NCBI GenBank assembly: GCA_030592285.1
Contig: JAUVJU010000003.1
Coordinates: 1-38,716 of the forward strand
DNA from: Caldifarciminota bacterium
Lineage (GTDB): Bacteria; Hydrothermota; 32-111
Direction: 5' to 3'
Length of the DNA stretch: 38,716 nt
Below are positions 19,187 through 36,371 of the stretch, piece after piece. Position 1 is the stretch's first letter. The number at the start of each line of letters is the position of its first letter. The position numbers were made by a program, and so were the translations under genes. The notes beneath the pieces are model-generated. The model was not told the origin of the DNA and made no database searches. It worked only from the letters and a program-made list of their open reading frames with translations.

Positions 19187-20383
19187 ATGAATAGAAAAAC
19201 ATATATTACATTATGGAAGGAAATAAACAAAGACGGTAAACCAATATTGATTATAGGACCAAGGCAGGTAGGAAAAACCACTCTTGCAAATCAGATTAGT
19301 AAGAAATATAAAAATTCATTTTACTATAATTATGATGAGTATCCTTTAAAAGTATTAAACAAGCCATATTTTTATGAGGAATTGAATAGAAGGGATTCAT
19401 CAAAACCACTAATTATATTTGATGAAATACACAAATTCTATAAATGGAAATCATATATAAAGGGTGTTTATGATAAAGATTCTTCCAAATATGATTTTAT
19501 TCTTACTGGAAGCGGGAGAATGGATTTGTATCAAAAGGGAGGAGATGCACTTACAGGACGAAAAAACAATTTATATCTTTTTCCATTTACATTAAGTGAA
19601 TTTTGTAAAAGAAGAAAAGTAGAAGGATTTTTATATGATCCTATGAATTTTATTAATTACAGCAAAAATAAAGAATCATATAAATTAATGAATATTTTTC
19701 TAGATATTTCTCCTTTCCCGGAGCCATTTTTAAAAAACAATAAAAGATTTTATAGAAGATGGAAAAAAGATTACAGAACACAATTAGTAAGGCAGGATAT
19801 AAGAGATGCTAGCAATATAATGGATATAATTAAACTAGAAAATCTGCTGTTATATATTCCTGAAAATGTATCATCAAATCTTTCATATCTTTCATGTGCT
19901 AAAATGCTTGAGGTCTCACCAAATACAATAAAGAAATGGCTATATCATTTGTCATCTTTTTTTCTTATATTTAGCATTATGCCTTACACAAAAACATCAA
20001 AAGCACTTCTGAAAGAAAAAAAATATTATATGTATGATTATGGGGTTGTAAATAATTTAGGTGCTAAATTTGAAAACATGATTGCTCTTGAATTATTAAG
20101 ATTAATTAACAATTTGAATGACTTGGGAGTTGATAATTTTGAGTTAAGATATATTAAAAATAGATTAGGAGAAGAAGTTGATTTTATTATACTTAAAAAT
20201 AATACCCCATTTTTATTAATAGAAGCAAAATATAATAATGATAATTTCAGTAAAACATTGTTAAAGTTTAGTGAAATATTTAATATAGCTGGAATTCAAT
20301 TAACAAATAAAAAAAATATTTATAGATTGAAAAACAAATGTGTACTTGTAAGTGCAAATAATTTTCTTTCTTCTTTGCCTTAA
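19187..20383 (+). CDS. AAA-type ATPase, DUF4143-containing family
   Basis: IIGPRQVGKTTLANQI Walker A; PLIIFDEIHKFYKWKSYIKGVYD; C-terminal RLGEEVDFII...LLIEAKY. Confidence 0.88.
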   Translation: MNRKTYITLWKEINKDGKPILIIGPRQVGKTTLANQISKKYKNSFYYNYDEYPLKVLNKPYFYEELNRRDSSKPLIIFDEIHKFYKWKSYIKGVYDKDSSKYDFILTGSGRMDLYQKGGDALTGRKNNLYLFPFTLSEFCKRRKVEGFLYDPMNFINYSKNKESYKLMNIFLDISPFPEPFLKNNKRFYRRWKKDYRTQLVRQDIRDASNIMDIIKLENLLLYIPENVSSNLSYLSCAKMLEVSPNTIKKWLYHLSSFFLIFSIMPYTKTSKALLKEKKYYMYDYGVVNNLGAKFENMIALELLRLINNLNDLGVDNFELRYIKNRLGEEVDFIILKNNTPFLLIEAKYNNDNFSKTLLKFSEIFNIAGIQLTNKKNIYRLKNKCVLVSANNFLSSLP

Positions 20384-23175: not shown

Positions 23176-23940
23176 ATGTTATATTTAGGAACAAGCGGAT
23201 ACCATTATAAAGAATGGATTGGAACTGTTTATCCTGAAACAACAAAGATAAAAACAATGTTTAATGAATATATTAATATCGGATTTAATACTGTTGAATT
23301 GAATTTCTCATATTACAGGCAGCCATCAGAAAAGATGATAAGAGATTTTTCCTTAAAGGCTCCTAAAGGGTTTAAATACATCATAAAGGCATATAAAGGA
23401 ATAACACATATATTTGAAGGCAATGAAATAATTAAAGATTACGTGAGTAATTACAGAAAAGGGAATGTGAAGAATAATTATGAAGGTGTATTATTTCAAT
23501 TTCCGGAATCATTTCATTTTAATAAGAAAAATTTGGAAATAATTAAAGAAAGAGTAAAGTATTTTGAAGATATTCCTTCATATATTGAATTCAGGGGTAG
23601 TGATTGGAATAGAGAAGATGTCTATGATTTTCTTAGAAAGAATAAAATGAATTATGTAATAACAGATTTACCAGAAAAAACCAATTTGCATAAAAGGGAA
23701 TTAAGATTAACTGATAAGAATGCATATTACCGTTTACATGGAAGAAATGATGACTGGTATAATCCAAAGGAACGGTATCATTATAATTATAATGATGATG
23801 AACTAAAAATATTTGCTTCGGAAATTAAGATGATTTCAAAAAAGGCAATAAATGTTTTTGTATTTTTTAATAATTGTCATGGTGGCTTTGCATTAACAAA
23901 TGCATTAAAAACAAAGCAAATGATTGGGGATTCTATTTAA
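23176..23940 (+). CDS. DUF72 family protein
   Basis: LYLGTSGYHYKEWIGTVYPE, FNTVELNFSYYRQPSEKM, AYYRLHGRNDDWY, VFVFFNNCHGGFALTNA. Confidence 0.9.
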   Translation: MLYLGTSGYHYKEWIGTVYPETTKIKTMFNEYINIGFNTVELNFSYYRQPSEKMIRDFSLKAPKGFKYIIKAYKGITHIFEGNEIIKDYVSNYRKGNVKNNYEGVLFQFPESFHFNKKNLEIIKERVKYFEDIPSYIEFRGSDWNREDVYDFLRKNKMNYVITDLPEKTNLHKRELRLTDKNAYYRLHGRNDDWYNPKERYHYNYNDDELKIFASEIKMISKKAINVFVFFNNCHGGFALTNALKTKQMIGDSI

Positions 23941-26900
23941 GAATATCAATCTTTATTTTGTATTTATAACTTTTTTTTATAGAATATAATTTTTTATACA
24001 ATTTTAATGATTTAATTTTATATGATTTTTTATTAGTTAATCGGTATAATTCAAAGAGGATCTCGGCCTGATTTTCATCATCTTTATACTTATTTAACAT
24101 ATTTTCTAAACAAGAAATTGCAGAATCATTATTTAAAAGTATATCTGATTTTACTTTTATAAATTCAATGTCAAAACTATGAGATTTGAAAAAATCGGTT
24201 AATGAATATTTTTCAATTTTCTTGATTATCTTATATATATTCTTATTCTTTTGTTCATAAAAGATCTCTGCTTTACATAAAAGACCTTTAATTAAACGAT
24301 CATCAACATTTAATGCTTTTGCTTTTTTAATCACTTTGTCTAAGTATTTGATTGCAATTTTGTATTCGCCTGTTATTTTATAAATTGAAACAAGATCAAA
24401 ATATATCGTAGAAAGTCTTTGATCTTCTTTCAATTCTTTTGCAAGAATTAGAGCTTTATTAAGATAATTAAGAGATTTTGATAGATCACCTATTTCAAAG
24501 TAAACATCACCAAGATTTGACAATACAGTTCTAATCCCACCTTTATCACCAATGCTCACTGCAAGATCATAGCTTAGATTATAAAATTTTAATGCTTCAG
24601 AATAATTTCCTTTTAATGTATAAATACTACCAAGATTATTTTGTAGAATTCTAATCACATATCTTTCTCCCAATTTATTGTTTTTTATGAGTAGTTTTTT
24701 GTATAAATCTTCAGCATTATCAAGATTTCCTTTAAGAAACTGGATATTTGCAATGTTGGTCAAAGCAGGAATTCTTTTCAGTCCCATTTTATTTGATATT
24801 TTTTTACTTTTATTAAAAAGCATAAGAGCTTTACTATAATTACCTTTATATTGATATATTAAGCCCATATTATTATATGTTAAGGCCTTATCAAATAGAA
24901 GTTTCTTCTCGCTTTTCTCGTTTTTTTCAATAAACAATAAATTCATATTGTAATAATACAATGCTTTTTCAAAATTGCCCAAATTACCATAAGCAATGCC
25001 ATAATTATTGTAAGTCCCCGAAATACCAACTTTTTCATTAGTCTTATTATATTTTTCTAAAGCCCTTTTAAATAACTTAATTGCATATTCATTATTGCCC
25101 AATCTTATTGATATATACCCATGTCTGTTTTCGGCATCTGCAATAATTAATTCATTTTTCAATTTATTCCCAATTCTTTTTATAGTTTTATAGATTTCAA
25201 TAGATTCTTTCCATCTACCTATTATTTCATAAATCTCCCCAATCTTCATTTTAATTGAAACAATTTTTCTGTTTTTCTTTTCATATTTTAATAATCTTTC
25301 ATATAGGGAAACAGCATCCTCATTTTTAAAATTTTCCTTTGCAAAATCACCGGCTAATAATAAATATTGTTTTGCTTCATTTTTCATTTCTGCCTGTTCA
25401 TAATGAAAAGCAATATCACTATAAAAATTTTTATTATTAATAAAGACCTTTTCCATTGTAATGGCAGCAATTTTATGCAATTTTTTTAACTGCTTTTTCA
25501 TTTGCATATTGTATGCAGCATCACGAAGCAAGCTATGTTTGAATAAATATTTTATTTGGGAAACAGCATTCCACAAATTTTCCTGTTCTCCCGTTTTCAA
25601 GATGGGTTTAATATTACTTTTACCTGATAGCATTGATGATAAAATATTAATATTAAATTCATTTCCAAGCACTGAGGCACTTTGAATAAGATTTCTTAAT
25701 TTTTGCGATAATCTATCTATTCGTGAAATTAGAATGGGATATATTCCCGAAGGAATATCAATATTAACTGCTTTTAATGAATATATATTGTTTTTTAATT
25801 CAATATATCTATTTTCAAATAAATACAAACAGAACTGTTCCATAAAAAAAGGATTGCTCTGCGTTTTTTTAAGGATCAAAGAATGCAATTTCTTATCAGT
25901 TTCATATCCTAACTGTAATTTCACAAATTCCTCAGTTTCTTCAGACTCAATTTTTTTAAGAATAATTTCTGAAACAAAAATATCCTTAATCGCCAACCTT
26001 GGTTTTTCGCCATTATCAAAGAATCTACTTGAAACCAAAAAAACACAAGGAAATTGATTTATATCATTGAATAATTGTAATAATAATTTATTTGAATCAG
26101 AATCCATCCATTGCAAATCCTCAATAATAATAATAAGCGGCTTGATGAGTGACAGGATCTTTATAAATGATATTATTCCAATAAGAAGATTATTAAACTT
26201 TGCCTTTGGATCAAGGGATAAAAGGTGGGATTCTTTGGTCTTAATATTCAAAAACTCGGCAATGATTTCTCTTCTGTCAATCAATTCGCGAAGTAATGCT
26301 TTTGCTTTTCTAGTATGAATTTTCCCTGCTGTTTCAATTAATTCATCAAATTTAGTATTAAATAATTTATTATTTTCTTTATTGGAATTGCTTTCATTTA
26401 CAGAAAAATATTTTTTAAGCATATATTCAAAAGGATTTAAACTTTTTTTAAGAATATTATCAGTTTTAAGAATAATCCTATTTGATTTTGATTTATACTC
26501 TTCAATAGAATTAAATATAATTCTTGTTTTACCAATACCAACATCTCCGTATACATAAACCAAGCCGCCATATTTGTTATTATTAATATGATTTAAGTGT
26601 TTAGAAATTAATTTTGATTCCCTTTTTCTGCCAACAAATTTTCCAGAGTAAAAAAACTCATCCTGAATATTTAGATTTCCAAGTAATTTATACAATTGGG
26701 TTTCTTTTGATTTTCCTTTAAAAGTAATGCTTCCTAAATACTCAATGTTATGGGACATCTGAATTTTTCTTCCTACATTTTCAGAAATCCATATTTCTCC
26801 CCAATCTGCTTTACTCATAAATCTTGCAGCCAAATTGACATTGTCACCCAAAACAGTATAAGTTGCTCTTATATTAGATCCAACAAGACCGGCATATACG

Positions 26901-27856
26901 GTTCCATAGGATAAGCCGGCCTTTATATCATTCCCATACAATTTTTTTATTTCCAAAACAAAGTCAATTGCCCGTATCATATTATTCTCATGTGAAATAG
27001 GAGCACCAAATAGTATAAGTACAAGATTATTCTTATCTCCAAAATCCAGTAAATTAAAATAACCGCCATAATTATCAGATAATGTAATGATTGTTGTGAT
27101 GAATTCATTTAATTTTTTAAAATCACTTAATTTCTTAAATTGCATAAAAACAGATACTACTTGTCTAAACTCACTCTTATTTTTATTTAATACATTGAAG
27201 GAAAAATACTGATTCAAAATCTTTTTGGAAATAATTTGCTTTTTAGGATGAAATGATTGTGATTTGACTTTATATTGTTTAAGTTTGAAAAAGCCATTCC
27301 TATTTTTAATTAATATTTTTTTTGTTTTCAATAATTTTGCAGCAGAACCATGTAATAATATTTCTCCAGGTTTTGTACAATGTTCTGCATTAACAGCATT
27401 ATTTATTGAATTACCCTTAAAAAAGAATGTTCTATGGTTTTCTTTACCAAGAATTCCCCAATTTAATAAACCATGTGAAATTCCAATTTTTAATGAAATT
27501 GATAAGCCCTTTATAAGCTTGGATTTGATCTTATAATTAGTATAGATATTCTGGATCTCACAGGCACAGTTAGAAACGGTATCCATTGCTGTATTAGGAA
27601 AGATTGCTGTAAAAGCATCGCCTGCAAAAGTAGAAATAAAACCATTGTTTGAGTATATTACATCAATCATTTGACCAAACACCTTGTTTATTATTGAAGA
27701 TAATTCTTCTGCTCCTGCTTTTCCATGAGAAGAAAGCTGTTCGGTTATGGAAGTGAACCCGGAAATATCAAGAAACATAACGGATGCCTTAAACGAACCA
27801 TTATACTCCTTGTGTTTTTCCTTTTCGGCAATGAATACAGGAATATAATTTATCAT
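23933..27856 (-). CDS. Soluble adenylyl cyclase-like protein: two class III cyclase domains, AAA ATPase, TPR repeats
   Basis: FLDISGFTSITEQL...GDAFTAIFP; VLGDNVNLAARFMSKA; YVYGDVGIGKTRIIF Walker A; IIEDLQWMDSDSN; multiple TPRs (NNYGIAYGNLGNFEKALYYY). Confidence 0.9.
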   Translation of the reverse strand: MINYIPVFIAEKEKHKEYNGSFKASVMFLDISGFTSITEQLSSHGKAGAEELSSIINKVFGQMIDVIYSNNGFISTFAGDAFTAIFPNTAMDTVSNCACEIQNIYTNYKIKSKLIKGLSISLKIGISHGLLNWGILGKENHRTFFFKGNSINNAVNAEHCTKPGEILLHGSAAKLLKTKKILIKNRNGFFKLKQYKVKSQSFHPKKQIISKKILNQYFSFNVLNKNKSEFRQVVSVFMQFKKLSDFKKLNEFITTIITLSDNYGGYFNLLDFGDKNNLVLILFGAPISHENNMIRAIDFVLEIKKLYGNDIKAGLSYGTVYAGLVGSNIRATYTVLGDNVNLAARFMSKADWGEIWISENVGRKIQMSHNIEYLGSITFKGKSKETQLYKLLGNLNIQDEFFYSGKFVGRKRESKLISKHLNHINNNKYGGLVYVYGDVGIGKTRIIFNSIEEYKSKSNRIILKTDNILKKSLNPFEYMLKKYFSVNESNSNKENNKLFNTKFDELIETAGKIHTRKAKALLRELIDRREIIAEFLNIKTKESHLLSLDPKAKFNNLLIGIISFIKILSLIKPLIIIIEDLQWMDSDSNKLLLQLFNDINQFPCVFLVSSRFFDNGEKPRLAIKDIFVSEIILKKIESEETEEFVKLQLGYETDKKLHSLILKKTQSNPFFMEQFCLYLFENRYIELKNNIYSLKAVNIDIPSGIYPILISRIDRLSQKLRNLIQSASVLGNEFNINILSSMLSGKSNIKPILKTGEQENLWNAVSQIKYLFKHSLLRDAAYNMQMKKQLKKLHKIAAITMEKVFINNKNFYSDIAFHYEQAEMKNEAKQYLLLAGDFAKENFKNEDAVSLYERLLKYEKKNRKIVSIKMKIGEIYEIIGRWKESIEIYKTIKRIGNKLKNELIIADAENRHGYISIRLGNNEYAIKLFKRALEKYNKTNEKVGISGTYNNYGIAYGNLGNFEKALYYYNMNLLFIEKNEKSEKKLLFDKALTYNNMGLIYQYKGNYSKALMLFNKSKKISNKMGLKRIPALTNIANIQFLKGNLDNAEDLYKKLLIKNNKLGERYVIRILQNNLGSIYTLKGNYSEALKFYNLSYDLAVSIGDKGGIRTVLSNLGDVYFEIGDLSKSLNYLNKALILAKELKEDQRLSTIYFDLVSIYKITGEYKIAIKYLDKVIKKAKALNVDDRLIKGLLCKAEIFYEQKNKNIYKIIKKIEKYSLTDFFKSHSFDIEFIKVKSDILLNNDSAISCLENMLNKYKDDENQAEILFELYRLTNKKSYKIKSLKLYKKLYSIKKSYKYKIKIDILK

Positions 27857-34314: not shown

Positions 34315-35187
34315 ATGATAAACATTCAATTACTTAAAAACATACAAAGAATCACCATAACAGCTCTTTTTGCGGACGATGAATTGATGAATCAATTGGT
34401 TCTAAAAGGGGGAAGTGCCATAAGTTTAATCTATGGTTTATCGAATAGAGCTTCTGTTGATTTGGATTTTTCAATGGAATTAGATTTTGACCAATTATAT
34501 TTAGATCAAATCGAAAATAAAATTGAGATGCTTTTGAAAAAAGAGTTTAAAAGGAACAATTATACAATCTTTGATTTTAAATTTGATGCAAAACCTAAAA
34601 ACAACAATGATCCAAATTGGGGTGGCTATAAAATTGAATTTAAATTGATTGAAACAGATAAATATAATGAAAATAATTTAAATAAAGCAAGGCGTGAATC
34701 AATACCCCTTGATGATGAGTTTCATAAGAAATTTACTATTGATATTAGTAAATATGAATATACTCATGAAAAAACAGAGAAGGAAATTGATGGATATATA
34801 ATTTATGTTTATACAATAGATTTAATTATTATTGAAAAAATCCGTGCAATTTGTCAGCAAAATCCTGAATATAAAAAAATAATCAAATCTGCTACTACAA
34901 GACCAAGATCAAAGGATTTTTATGATATTTATATATTACTAAAGGACAAAAATTCAGGTGAATTTATTGATAAAATCAAAGATACTATAAAAATTGTATT
35001 CAAACAGAAGAAGGTACCATTGGAATACTTGATGCAGATAAGTAACCAAAAGAATATACATAAAGCAGACTTTGCATCATTGCGGGACACTTTACCTGTT
35101 AAAGAAAAACTGGAAGAATTTAATGTATATTTTGCATTTATTGTAGAATTGTGCAGAAATATTTATAAATCAATATTTCCAGGATAA
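34315..35187 (+). CDS. AbiEii-family nucleotidyltransferase toxin-like protein
   Basis: LVLKGGSAISLIYGLSNRASVDLDFSM nucleotidyltransferase motif; EKIRAICQQ, RPRSKDFYDIYILL. Confidence 0.85.
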   Translation: MINIQLLKNIQRITITALFADDELMNQLVLKGGSAISLIYGLSNRASVDLDFSMELDFDQLYLDQIENKIEMLLKKEFKRNNYTIFDFKFDAKPKNNNDPNWGGYKIEFKLIETDKYNENNLNKARRESIPLDDEFHKKFTIDISKYEYTHEKTEKEIDGYIIYVYTIDLIIIEKIRAICQQNPEYKKIIKSATTRPRSKDFYDIYILLKDKNSGEFIDKIKDTIKIVFKQKKVPLEYLMQISNQKNIHKADFASLRDTLPVKEKLEEFNVYFAFIVELCRNIYKSIFPG

Positions 35188-36047
35188 TAAACATTCCATT
35201 CCTTATCAAATTTTAGATTTGATAATTTGTGACCAAGATAAAATTTTATTTTAAATGGATTTTTCTTTAATAAGGATAATTGCTGATTTGAATAAACACC
35301 GGATTTTGATAAATAAAAACCGATTGATTGAATATATGGATAAACGAAATCCATCTGTTTAAGATATGCCTGAATCCTATTAAGAGAAATTTTTCCTTTT
35401 ACATTATAATATGCATTCAGAACTTCAGAAATTCCACCAGCATATTCGGGTCTTACTGCTATGTCAATTAAGGTTCTTTCAATATCAGTAATAGAAATTG
35501 ATTCATCATCAAAATTTATTGATATAACCCCTAAATTGTTATGGTTTTTACCATTGAGAATGCAAACTCTATAATTATTCATTTTACAGATATTGTTTGA
35601 TAAACGCTGTGGTCTTAAGAATGCCATATCCACCTTCTCTTGTGATAAAATAGCATTATTAGGGGATCTGGGTTTTGGTGATTGTTCAATATTCAAATAA
35701 TATGTTTTTGGTATTTGATCTGTCAAATTGTGTATAAACATAGCAGAATAATGAGAAAAGTATGAATTTGGTTTTATTGATAAAAGAGTTTTATTCAAAG
35801 AGCCATCTCTCCAAATATAGAGAGATTTGCTGAAAGAGGGGAATTGGAATTTAAGAGACTTAAGAAAAGTATTTTCTTCAAGTAAAGAAATGAATTTTTT
35901 TGTACTAGTATTTTGTGGCAATCTCCAAAAATCAATATTGTTTGAAAGGATTTCGGATATATCTGAATAAGAAAAGACATTATTTTCTAATGAATCAAAT
36001 AATTTAATAATATCCTTTTTGGCTATTTGAAATCTTGTTTGTTTCAC
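35163..36047 (-). CDS. AbiEi-family antitoxin/transcriptional regulator-like protein (GTG start at 36047 preferred over upstream in-frame extension)
   Basis: SYFSHYSAMFIHNLTDQIPKTYYLNIEQSPKPR, ITDIERTLIDIAVRPEYAGGISEVLNAY; taggagaattt before GTG. Confidence 0.75.
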   Translation of the reverse strand: MKQTRFQIAKKDIIKLFDSLENNVFSYSDISEILSNNIDFWRLPQNTSTKKFISLLEENTFLKSLKFQFPSFSKSLYIWRDGSLNKTLLSIKPNSYFSHYSAMFIHNLTDQIPKTYYLNIEQSPKPRSPNNAILSQEKVDMAFLRPQRLSNNICKMNNYRVCILNGKNHNNLGVISINFDDESISITDIERTLIDIAVRPEYAGGISEVLNAYYNVKGKISLNRIQAYLKQMDFVYPYIQSIGFYLSKSGVYSNQQLSLLKKNPFKIKFYLGHKLSNLKFDKEWNVYYPGNIDL

Positions 36048-36093
36048 AAATTCTCCTAATAAAATCCAAATACTATATATATCTCCTTGAATA

Positions 36094-36121
36094 ATAATAA
36101 CATAAATAAATAATTTGTCAA
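36094..36121 (-). promoter_or_regulatory. Promoter of AbiEi-like gene: TTGACA-16-TATTAT
   Basis: Minus-strand -35 at 36116-36121 and -10 at 36094-36099; inverted repeat P1 starts 8 bp upstream of the -35. Confidence 0.65.
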
Positions 36122-36128
36122 TAGTTAT

Positions 36129-36371
36129 CCTCATTAGTATATATACTAATGAGGAAATAACCATATAGTATTAAAGAATACATAAGTTGATATAAATGGA
36201 AACTTATAAGGGATATCAACAAAAATACATATTATATTATATAGTATATATACTATATAATACAATGTATATTTTCCATATTTATACATATAAGTTACTT
36301 TTATATTGGAACTTATATATGTTTTTAATGCAAATTAGGTTATGATATATAGTATACATACTATATATCAT
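36129..36371. repeat. Array of five inverted repeats of two alternating types (P1-S1-P2-S2-P3), centres 53-54.5 bp apart
   Basis: P1 36129-36154 CCTCATTAGTATATATACTAATGAGG; S1 36182-36207 ATAAGTT-n12-AACTTAT; P2 36235-36262 TATTATATAGTATATATACTATATAATA; S2 36290-36316 ATAAGTT-n13-AACTTAT; P3 36342-36371 ATGATATATAGTAT-ac-ATACTATATATCAT. Confidence 0.85.

Follow-up and report, generated by a model that had tools for sequence, protein, structure and literature searches.

The closest described parallels to the locus considered here are the AbiE toxin-antitoxin systems. In Streptococcus agalactiae, abiE is a type IV system in which the antitoxin AbiEi exerts negative autoregulation, binding cooperatively to inverted repeats that lie over its own promoter (PMC7319586). 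In the AbiEi operators that have been characterised, the protein binds 23-bp repeats in duplex form (PMC7319586), and the characterised AbiE systems are arranged as co-directional abiEi-abiEii operons (PMC7319586, PMC3985639). Also covered there is the Rv2827c/Rv2826c pair of Mycobacterium tuberculosis (MenA/MenT family), which has four 23-bp repeats in two pairs, each of which can be bound, with graded affinity (PMC7319586). For AbiE of ICESsuHN105 from Streptococcus suis, EMSA places AbiEi on a pair of palindromes within the promoter of its own gene, and the protein additionally binds oriT and the sezAT promoter (PMC11062541).

The locus analysed here resembles that of S. agalactiae in having an AbiEi-family gene with inverted repeats in or next to its own promoter, which here are conserved in relatives, and resembles the Rv2827c/Rv2826c promoter in having several such repeats (PMC7319586). 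It differs in their form and setting. The S. agalactiae operator precedes a co-directional operon and comprises two 23-bp repeats with 3 bp between them (PMC7319586). Here the palindromes measure 28 bp and are spaced at 107-108 bp in the window; across related loci the self-palindromes are 51-186 bp apart and have arms that are variable but symmetric, and the genes are convergent (as in the window) or divergent. The repeats of Rv2827c/Rv2826c have a common sequence consensus and an operon layout, and symmetric drift of the arms is not reported in the part of that paper used here (PMC7319586). Finally, whereas AbiEi of ICESsuHN105 has targets beyond its own promoter, the exact cores described below were found only at the abiEi promoter.

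Palindrome array beside an AbiEi-like gene

The window, that is the whole 38,716-nucleotide stretch of DNA that was analysed, encodes an AbiEi-like antitoxin of 294 amino acids with a GTG start (35163..36047, minus strand; PADLOC AbiEi PDLC02267, E=3.8e-27). Its match to Pfam AbiEi_1 is weak and below the cutoff; the same model matches 10 of 13 family members at E<=1, with a best value of 1.4e-6, and a search of NCBIfam gave no model that matched the protein. It is 33-45% identical to 12 homologues, a profile search for a solved relative found none, and its AlphaFold2 model has a mean pLDDT of 32.5, which is too low for use. Next to it lies the gene for an AbiEii nucleotidyltransferase toxin (34315..35187, plus strand; Pfam AbiEii, E=2.1e-24; PADLOC AbiEii, E=1.6e-21). 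The two genes are convergent and their 3' ends share 25 bp (35163-35187), and therefore their transcripts would be mutually antisense; a comparable tail-to-tail overlap is seen again in many homologues. At E<=1e-20 the abiEi-like gene is present in 1 of 147 genomes of the window's phylum, namely the window genome, which suggests that this genome acquired it horizontally. Elsewhere in the window there are a gene for an AAA_14/DUF4143 ATPase (19187-20383; Pfam, E=1.2e-30 and 3e-19) and one for a 1307-amino-acid protein (23933-27856), which by eye seems to combine two domains of cyclase type with an ATPase region and TPR-like repeats.

Between the AbiEi-like gene and an ABC exporter gene, in an intergenic region of 479 bp, five elements follow one another in the order P1-S1-P2-S2-P3 (all given without strand). 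P1 (36128..36155, centre 36141.5) consists of perfect 14-bp halves, TCCTCATTAGTATA/TATACTAATGAGGA, and is 28 bp long; P2 (36222..36275, centre 36248.5), the mirror axis of the array, is perfect over 36235-36262 and 89% symmetric overall; and P3 (36340..36373, centre 36356.5) has arms of 14+ bp flanking a central AC, reading ATGATATATAGTAT-gt-ATACTATATATCAT on the minus strand. The gapped inverted repeats S1 (36182..36207, ATAAGTT-n12-AACTTAT) and S2 (36290..36316, ATAAGTT-n13-AACTTAT) lie midway between P1 and P2 and between P2 and P3, respectively, each at most 0.5 bp off the midpoint. This array had been described in an earlier note on the same DNA; direct reading confirms its sequence and coordinates, and re-measurement returned the same successive centre spacings of 53, 54, 54.5 and 53.5 bp. 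By consensus match only, a putative -35 box (TTGACA, 36116..36121, minus strand) and a putative -10 box (ATTATT, 36093..36098, minus strand) of the abiEi-like gene are separated by a 17-bp spacer, in a promoter that adjoins P1 and does not lie within it. Measured from the 28-bp edges, the gap between P1 and the -35 box is 6 bp, not the 8 bp given in the earlier note.

Chance was assessed with dinucleotide-preserving shuffles of the 479-bp intergenic region (n=2000), a palindrome being counted at a half-length of 12 or more. At least one arose in 2/2000 shuffles and at least two in 0/2000, so P1-P3 are not the product of chance. The S pair fares less well in the same comparison: a repeated gapped 7-mer inverted repeat of this kind arose in 78 of the 2000 shuffles, and in 6/2000 once the P palindromes had been removed first, and that S1 and S2 are better than chance is moderately supported. 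A search of the 2.14-Mb assembly for the P core TAGTATAYATACTA and for the S pattern gave no second occurrence of either, and both are unique to the array. As single-stranded DNA, P1-P3 have hairpin energies of -6.0 to -9.6 kcal/mol, with P1 at -9.6 kcal/mol (z -7.0), values that describe single-strand folding and not extrusion.

Recurrence upstream of abiEi in relatives

The comparison with relatives covered 25 plasmid loci and 18 loci from genomes of the phylum and class of a Phycisphaeraceae MAG; L025 and L058 are the same record, and L065 and L066 are partial matches in which the gene start was not placed. The palindromes are conserved. Specifically, 1-4 of them stand directly upstream of abiEi in 40 of the 42 distinct loci with a placed gene start, and the loci that bear them span Bacillota, Bacteroidota, Pseudomonadota, Campylobacterota and Planctomycetota as well as the window's own phylum. 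The two exceptions are L025, with a single site containing two mismatches, and L051, with two cores and no arms. Counted by sequence length, there are 89 palindromes in the 31.8 kb upstream of abiEi against 8 in the remaining 178 kb of the loci, a difference in density of about 60-fold. The closest homologue in the contig scan, and its only match, comes from the Phycisphaeraceae MAG, a planctomycete with a high-GC genome (45% identity), in which abiEi is preceded by two long palindromes with a separation of 164 bp, each containing an exact TAGTATATATACTA core, and the gene order is convergent, as in the window.

In most annotated homologues AbiEii adjoins abiEi. The two genes are convergent also in L017 and in many plasmids, and divergent in L033-L036, L038-L040 and L042; in L041 and L043 (plasmids of Aliarcobacter and Sulfurimonas, Campylobacterota) the abiEi-like gene faces an annotated HipA, with the palindromes between them. 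Because the partner varies between convergent AbiEii, divergent AbiEii and annotated HipA, abiEi is the constant element, and the palindromes are, judging from these loci, a property of one AbiEi-like antitoxin subfamily. The earlier note had proposed that they are an operator of the AbiEi-like gene, and the comparison supports this, both through their recurrence in the relatives and through the exact cores, which occur nowhere else in the window genome or in 12 plasmids; we consider it highly probable that the palindromes serve as operators of the antitoxin.

A partition site had also been raised in the earlier note, and in its wider form this reading would make the palindromes a partition, resolution or transfer site, a centromere or recombination site travelling with the toxin-antitoxin pair. 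Such a role would be in keeping with the finding that most annotated homologues are plasmid-borne, often close to recombinases or relaxases, and with the binding of oriT by a related AbiEi in an ICE (PMC11062541). However, neither the window genome nor the plasmids scanned have an exact core anywhere but upstream of abiEi, GTATATATAC being confined to abiEi promoters in 11 of the 12 plasmids scanned whole and absent in its exact form from the twelfth. Site spacing and number also vary, many sites overlap promoters, and the AbiE system occurs as well in contigs of about 19 planctomycete genomes. With exact cores that are not placed independently of the abiEi promoter, a partition or plasmid-wide site is disfavoured, and we regard it as highly improbable. 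The TAGTATA core and the 28-bp length are reminiscent of a telomere-resolvase or dif-like site; this candidate was dropped, since the contig runs through the array and the sites recur only as promoter sets.

Spacing, S motifs and an inverted duplication

The regular step of the array had led the earlier note to a two-motif operator, in which P and S together would phase dimers every ~54 bp on one face of the DNA. The positions of S1 and S2, within 0.5 bp of the P-P midpoints, speak for such a design. When the P1-P2 spacer (36156-36234) is aligned with the reverse complement of the P2-P3 spacer (36263-36342), however, 59 of the 72 aligned bases match, marking an inverted duplication over 36156..36342 (no strand assigned), and the second P-S unit mirrors the first through it. 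The alignment score was reached in 0/1000 dinucleotide shuffles (z 5.5); without S1 and S2 the match falls to z 2.7 (12/1000), and the outer flanks give z 2.3. The second half of the array aligns with the first better inverted (26.5) than directly (11.0), for which reason a CRISPR-like or simple tandem array was rejected, and an imperfect inverted duplication with P2 as its axis is the best reading of P1-S1-P2-S2-P3. The right half has the look of the left copied in reverse orientation, so that the second pair of spacings follows from the first and the four do not count as independent; the regularity of the window would largely be a result of the duplication. In one relative (L064, 2400-2548) the contig end is a 142-bp perfect palindrome holding three core palindromes, which is either an assembly fold-back or a recent inverted duplication like that of the window.

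Across loci, the palindromes are 51-186 bp apart and their spacings have no 54-bp period (p 0.5), but they do have a weak period near 10.8-11.1 bp (jitter p 0.0015-0.04, according to the representatives drawn). On account of this weak period of about 11 bp, which also favours the two-motif design, placement of the palindromes on one helix face is possible, and the data are suggestive of it. The phased array of the earlier note may hold as to helical phase, whereas its 54-bp step is not conserved. Its S component is not supported as a design common to relatives: the 46 intervals between palindromes contain few S-like repeats in other loci, with 12 seen against 6.4 expected, a count that leaves the S motif unsupported as a conserved second operator, and those in L028 and L041 are back-to-back -35 boxes. 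As far as these loci indicate, neither the S motifs nor the 54-bp step is conserved and the regularity of the window is local, and we consider a phased operator of P and S motifs unlikely.

A fixed centre with free but matched arms

The focus of the earlier note on the regularity of the array missed what we see as the main feature, which is that the arms differ between sites while symmetry is retained. Sites within one locus have a common centre of ~10 bp, GTATATATAC, and differ in their outer arms, the mean symmetry within a site being 0.964 against an arm identity of 0.641 between sites of the same locus. Over 87 sites, symmetry by position is 0.95-1.00 at positions 2-12, where it is biased by the palindrome detection rule, then 0.89 at 13, 0.87 at 14 and 0.49 at 15. 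In another test, 61 sites were picked by the core alone, the arms not being looked at, and in these 514 of 549 arm cells at positions 6-14 are symmetric. The edge at 14 bp is sharp and common to several phyla, and 30 of 78 distinct sites end exactly at 14 bp per half; one site in L049 (near 2604) has 30-bp perfect arms, 62 bp in total, where 14 is usual.

Differences between sites of one locus are symmetric in both sites in 188 of 211 cases. The half-sites of L060, for example, are GTCGCTTGAAGTATA, TCATTATCAGCACGTATA and CACGCATCATGATGTATA, all of them self-complementary (the first with one mismatch), and those of L052 are GCTCACGCTAGGTATA and TCGTGAGCATGGTATA, each self-complementary. Moreover, two Burkholderia plasmids (L022/L044) that encode proteins 96% identical, and whose upstream regions are 77% identical overall, have an orthologous site that reads ACGCAGCGT/ACGCTGCGT in one and ATGCAGCGC/GCGCTGCAT in the other, which amounts to two compensated base-pair changes. 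Since both halves change letters together, it seems to be mirror symmetry, rather than sequence, that is conserved in these sites, the arms covarying in such a way that complementarity persists independent of sequence. The exception is L051 (1495-2500, from the planctomycete search), where the convergent gene pair is intact and two GTATATATAC cores stand at positions -142 and -28 but neither is flanked by symmetric arms; the arms are therefore not always needed. One site in L036 has a one-sided change that was left uncorrected.

A dimer on duplex DNA needs no agreement of the two halves at positions that tolerate any base. Ordinary dimer readout would thus leave the matched arms unexplained, and either cruciform or hairpin recognition or template-switch repair could account for them. 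In the second case the sites would be plain duplex operators, in which AbiEi dimers recognise the core, possibly together with the arms, in linear DNA, and template switching between the halves during replication would copy arm changes across. Quasipalindrome correction of this type makes and repairs hairpin stems, and it predicts perfect inverted repeats and compensated multi-base changes (PMC8794818), as are found here; the armless cores of L051 and the uncorrected change in L036 fit it as well. It is, however, a mutation process and not a function, and alone it sets neither the common 14-bp edge, which is sharp across phyla, nor the promoter location. With as few as 8 palindromes of this kind in the other 178 kb of the loci, a mutation bias would need to be confined almost entirely to these sites. 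Three features favour selection, namely the common edge, the location of the sites at one promoter and how seldom such palindromes are met in other sequence; the template-switch explanation stays alive because L051 shows the arms to be dispensable at least once, and we give it a real but minor chance of being right.

Constraint on DNA or RNA

The arms might instead be stems of RNA hairpins in the abiEi leader, serving attenuation, stability or toxin/antitoxin RNA binding. Stems would account for arms that are complementary and free in sequence, and in L033 and L040, where the genes are divergent, a palindrome apparently comes after the probable start of transcription. If an RNA stem were under selection, G-U pairs should be favoured. 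Yet the arm mismatches of the core-selected set, read on the abiEi sense strand, comprise 6 G-U, 5 A-C and 24 others, and G-U is found in 1 of 1014 cells of the palindrome-selected set, so that G-U is not in excess. A sigma-70-like -10 box within an arm, with a fitting -35 box, is present at 42 of the 87 sites against 21% of control positions, promoter assignments being consensus matches only. In L018, L021, L023, L026-L028, L041 and L043, a strong -10/-35 pair has its -10 box within an arm, and in the clearest cases (L021, L023, L026, L027, L028, L041 and L043) the predicted transcription start is near the palindrome centre, and consequently the full stem would not be transcribed from such promoters; with the -10 in the left arm, the transcript would begin near the centre and lack that arm. 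The lack of a G-U bias and the -10 inside the arm in many loci indicate that the constraint on the arms acts on DNA; on these two grounds RNA hairpins were rejected as the main reading, and we think them very unlikely. In L018, a Bacillus plasmid, a terminator-like hairpin and T-run lie between two palindromes, that is between tandem promoters, and the upstream palindrome may drive a short RNA.

Proposed mechanism

We propose that the ~28-bp sites, present at the abiEi promoter in pairs or small arrays, are bound by the AbiEi-like protein, which would thereby repress or tune its own transcription. Each site would be built of two layers. Specificity would come from a nearly invariant centre, which most lineages have as GTATATATAC; outer arms of largely free sequence, mutually complementary to 14 bp per half, would form the second layer, which acts on the DNA. 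The arm layer would most likely reflect use of the site in folded form, with negative supercoiling driving the AT-rich centre to extrude as a cruciform or hairpin. The extrusion of short palindromes takes strong supercoiling. The folded form could either be bound by AbiEi or compete with the linear, bindable form, and extrusion would also take away the -10 box in many homologues. In the window, an inverted duplication with P2 in the middle would have enlarged the array; P1 and P3 would since have diverged in their arms, each remaining symmetric.

That an operator role and a selected structural role of the arms hold jointly is, on the patterns described above, a proposition that we find evenly balanced. 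Our support is more tentative for the proposal that the sites make up a widespread regulatory class whose shape the antitoxin recognises, with a fixed centre and arms that need only be mutually complementary over the 14-bp half, and we are similarly hesitant about the idea that such a shape-read site is an extruded cruciform or hairpin that couples toxin-antitoxin control to supercoiling or strand separation. None of the titles from a literature search on GTATATATAC concerned a bacterial regulator or operator, and a search on cruciform, toxin-antitoxin and operator gave titles on restriction systems or plasmid replication only.

Implications

The usual view of operators is of sequences that are read by a protein. 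In the AbiEi-like subfamily, at dozens of promoters in at least 5 phyla, the sites appear to have retained their mirror symmetry and a common edge while much of the sequence is free. If structure is what has been selected, then living cells would contain a regulator that reads DNA in its folded form, a long-disputed idea; if the pattern comes from mutation bias, then a mutation process alone would hold regulatory sites symmetric over deep time. Both readings are testable on small plasmids of common laboratory hosts, and L051 provides a natural test case for the function of the arms. The sites also define a convergent or divergent AbiE subfamily, the antitoxin genes of which are mostly annotated as hypothetical.
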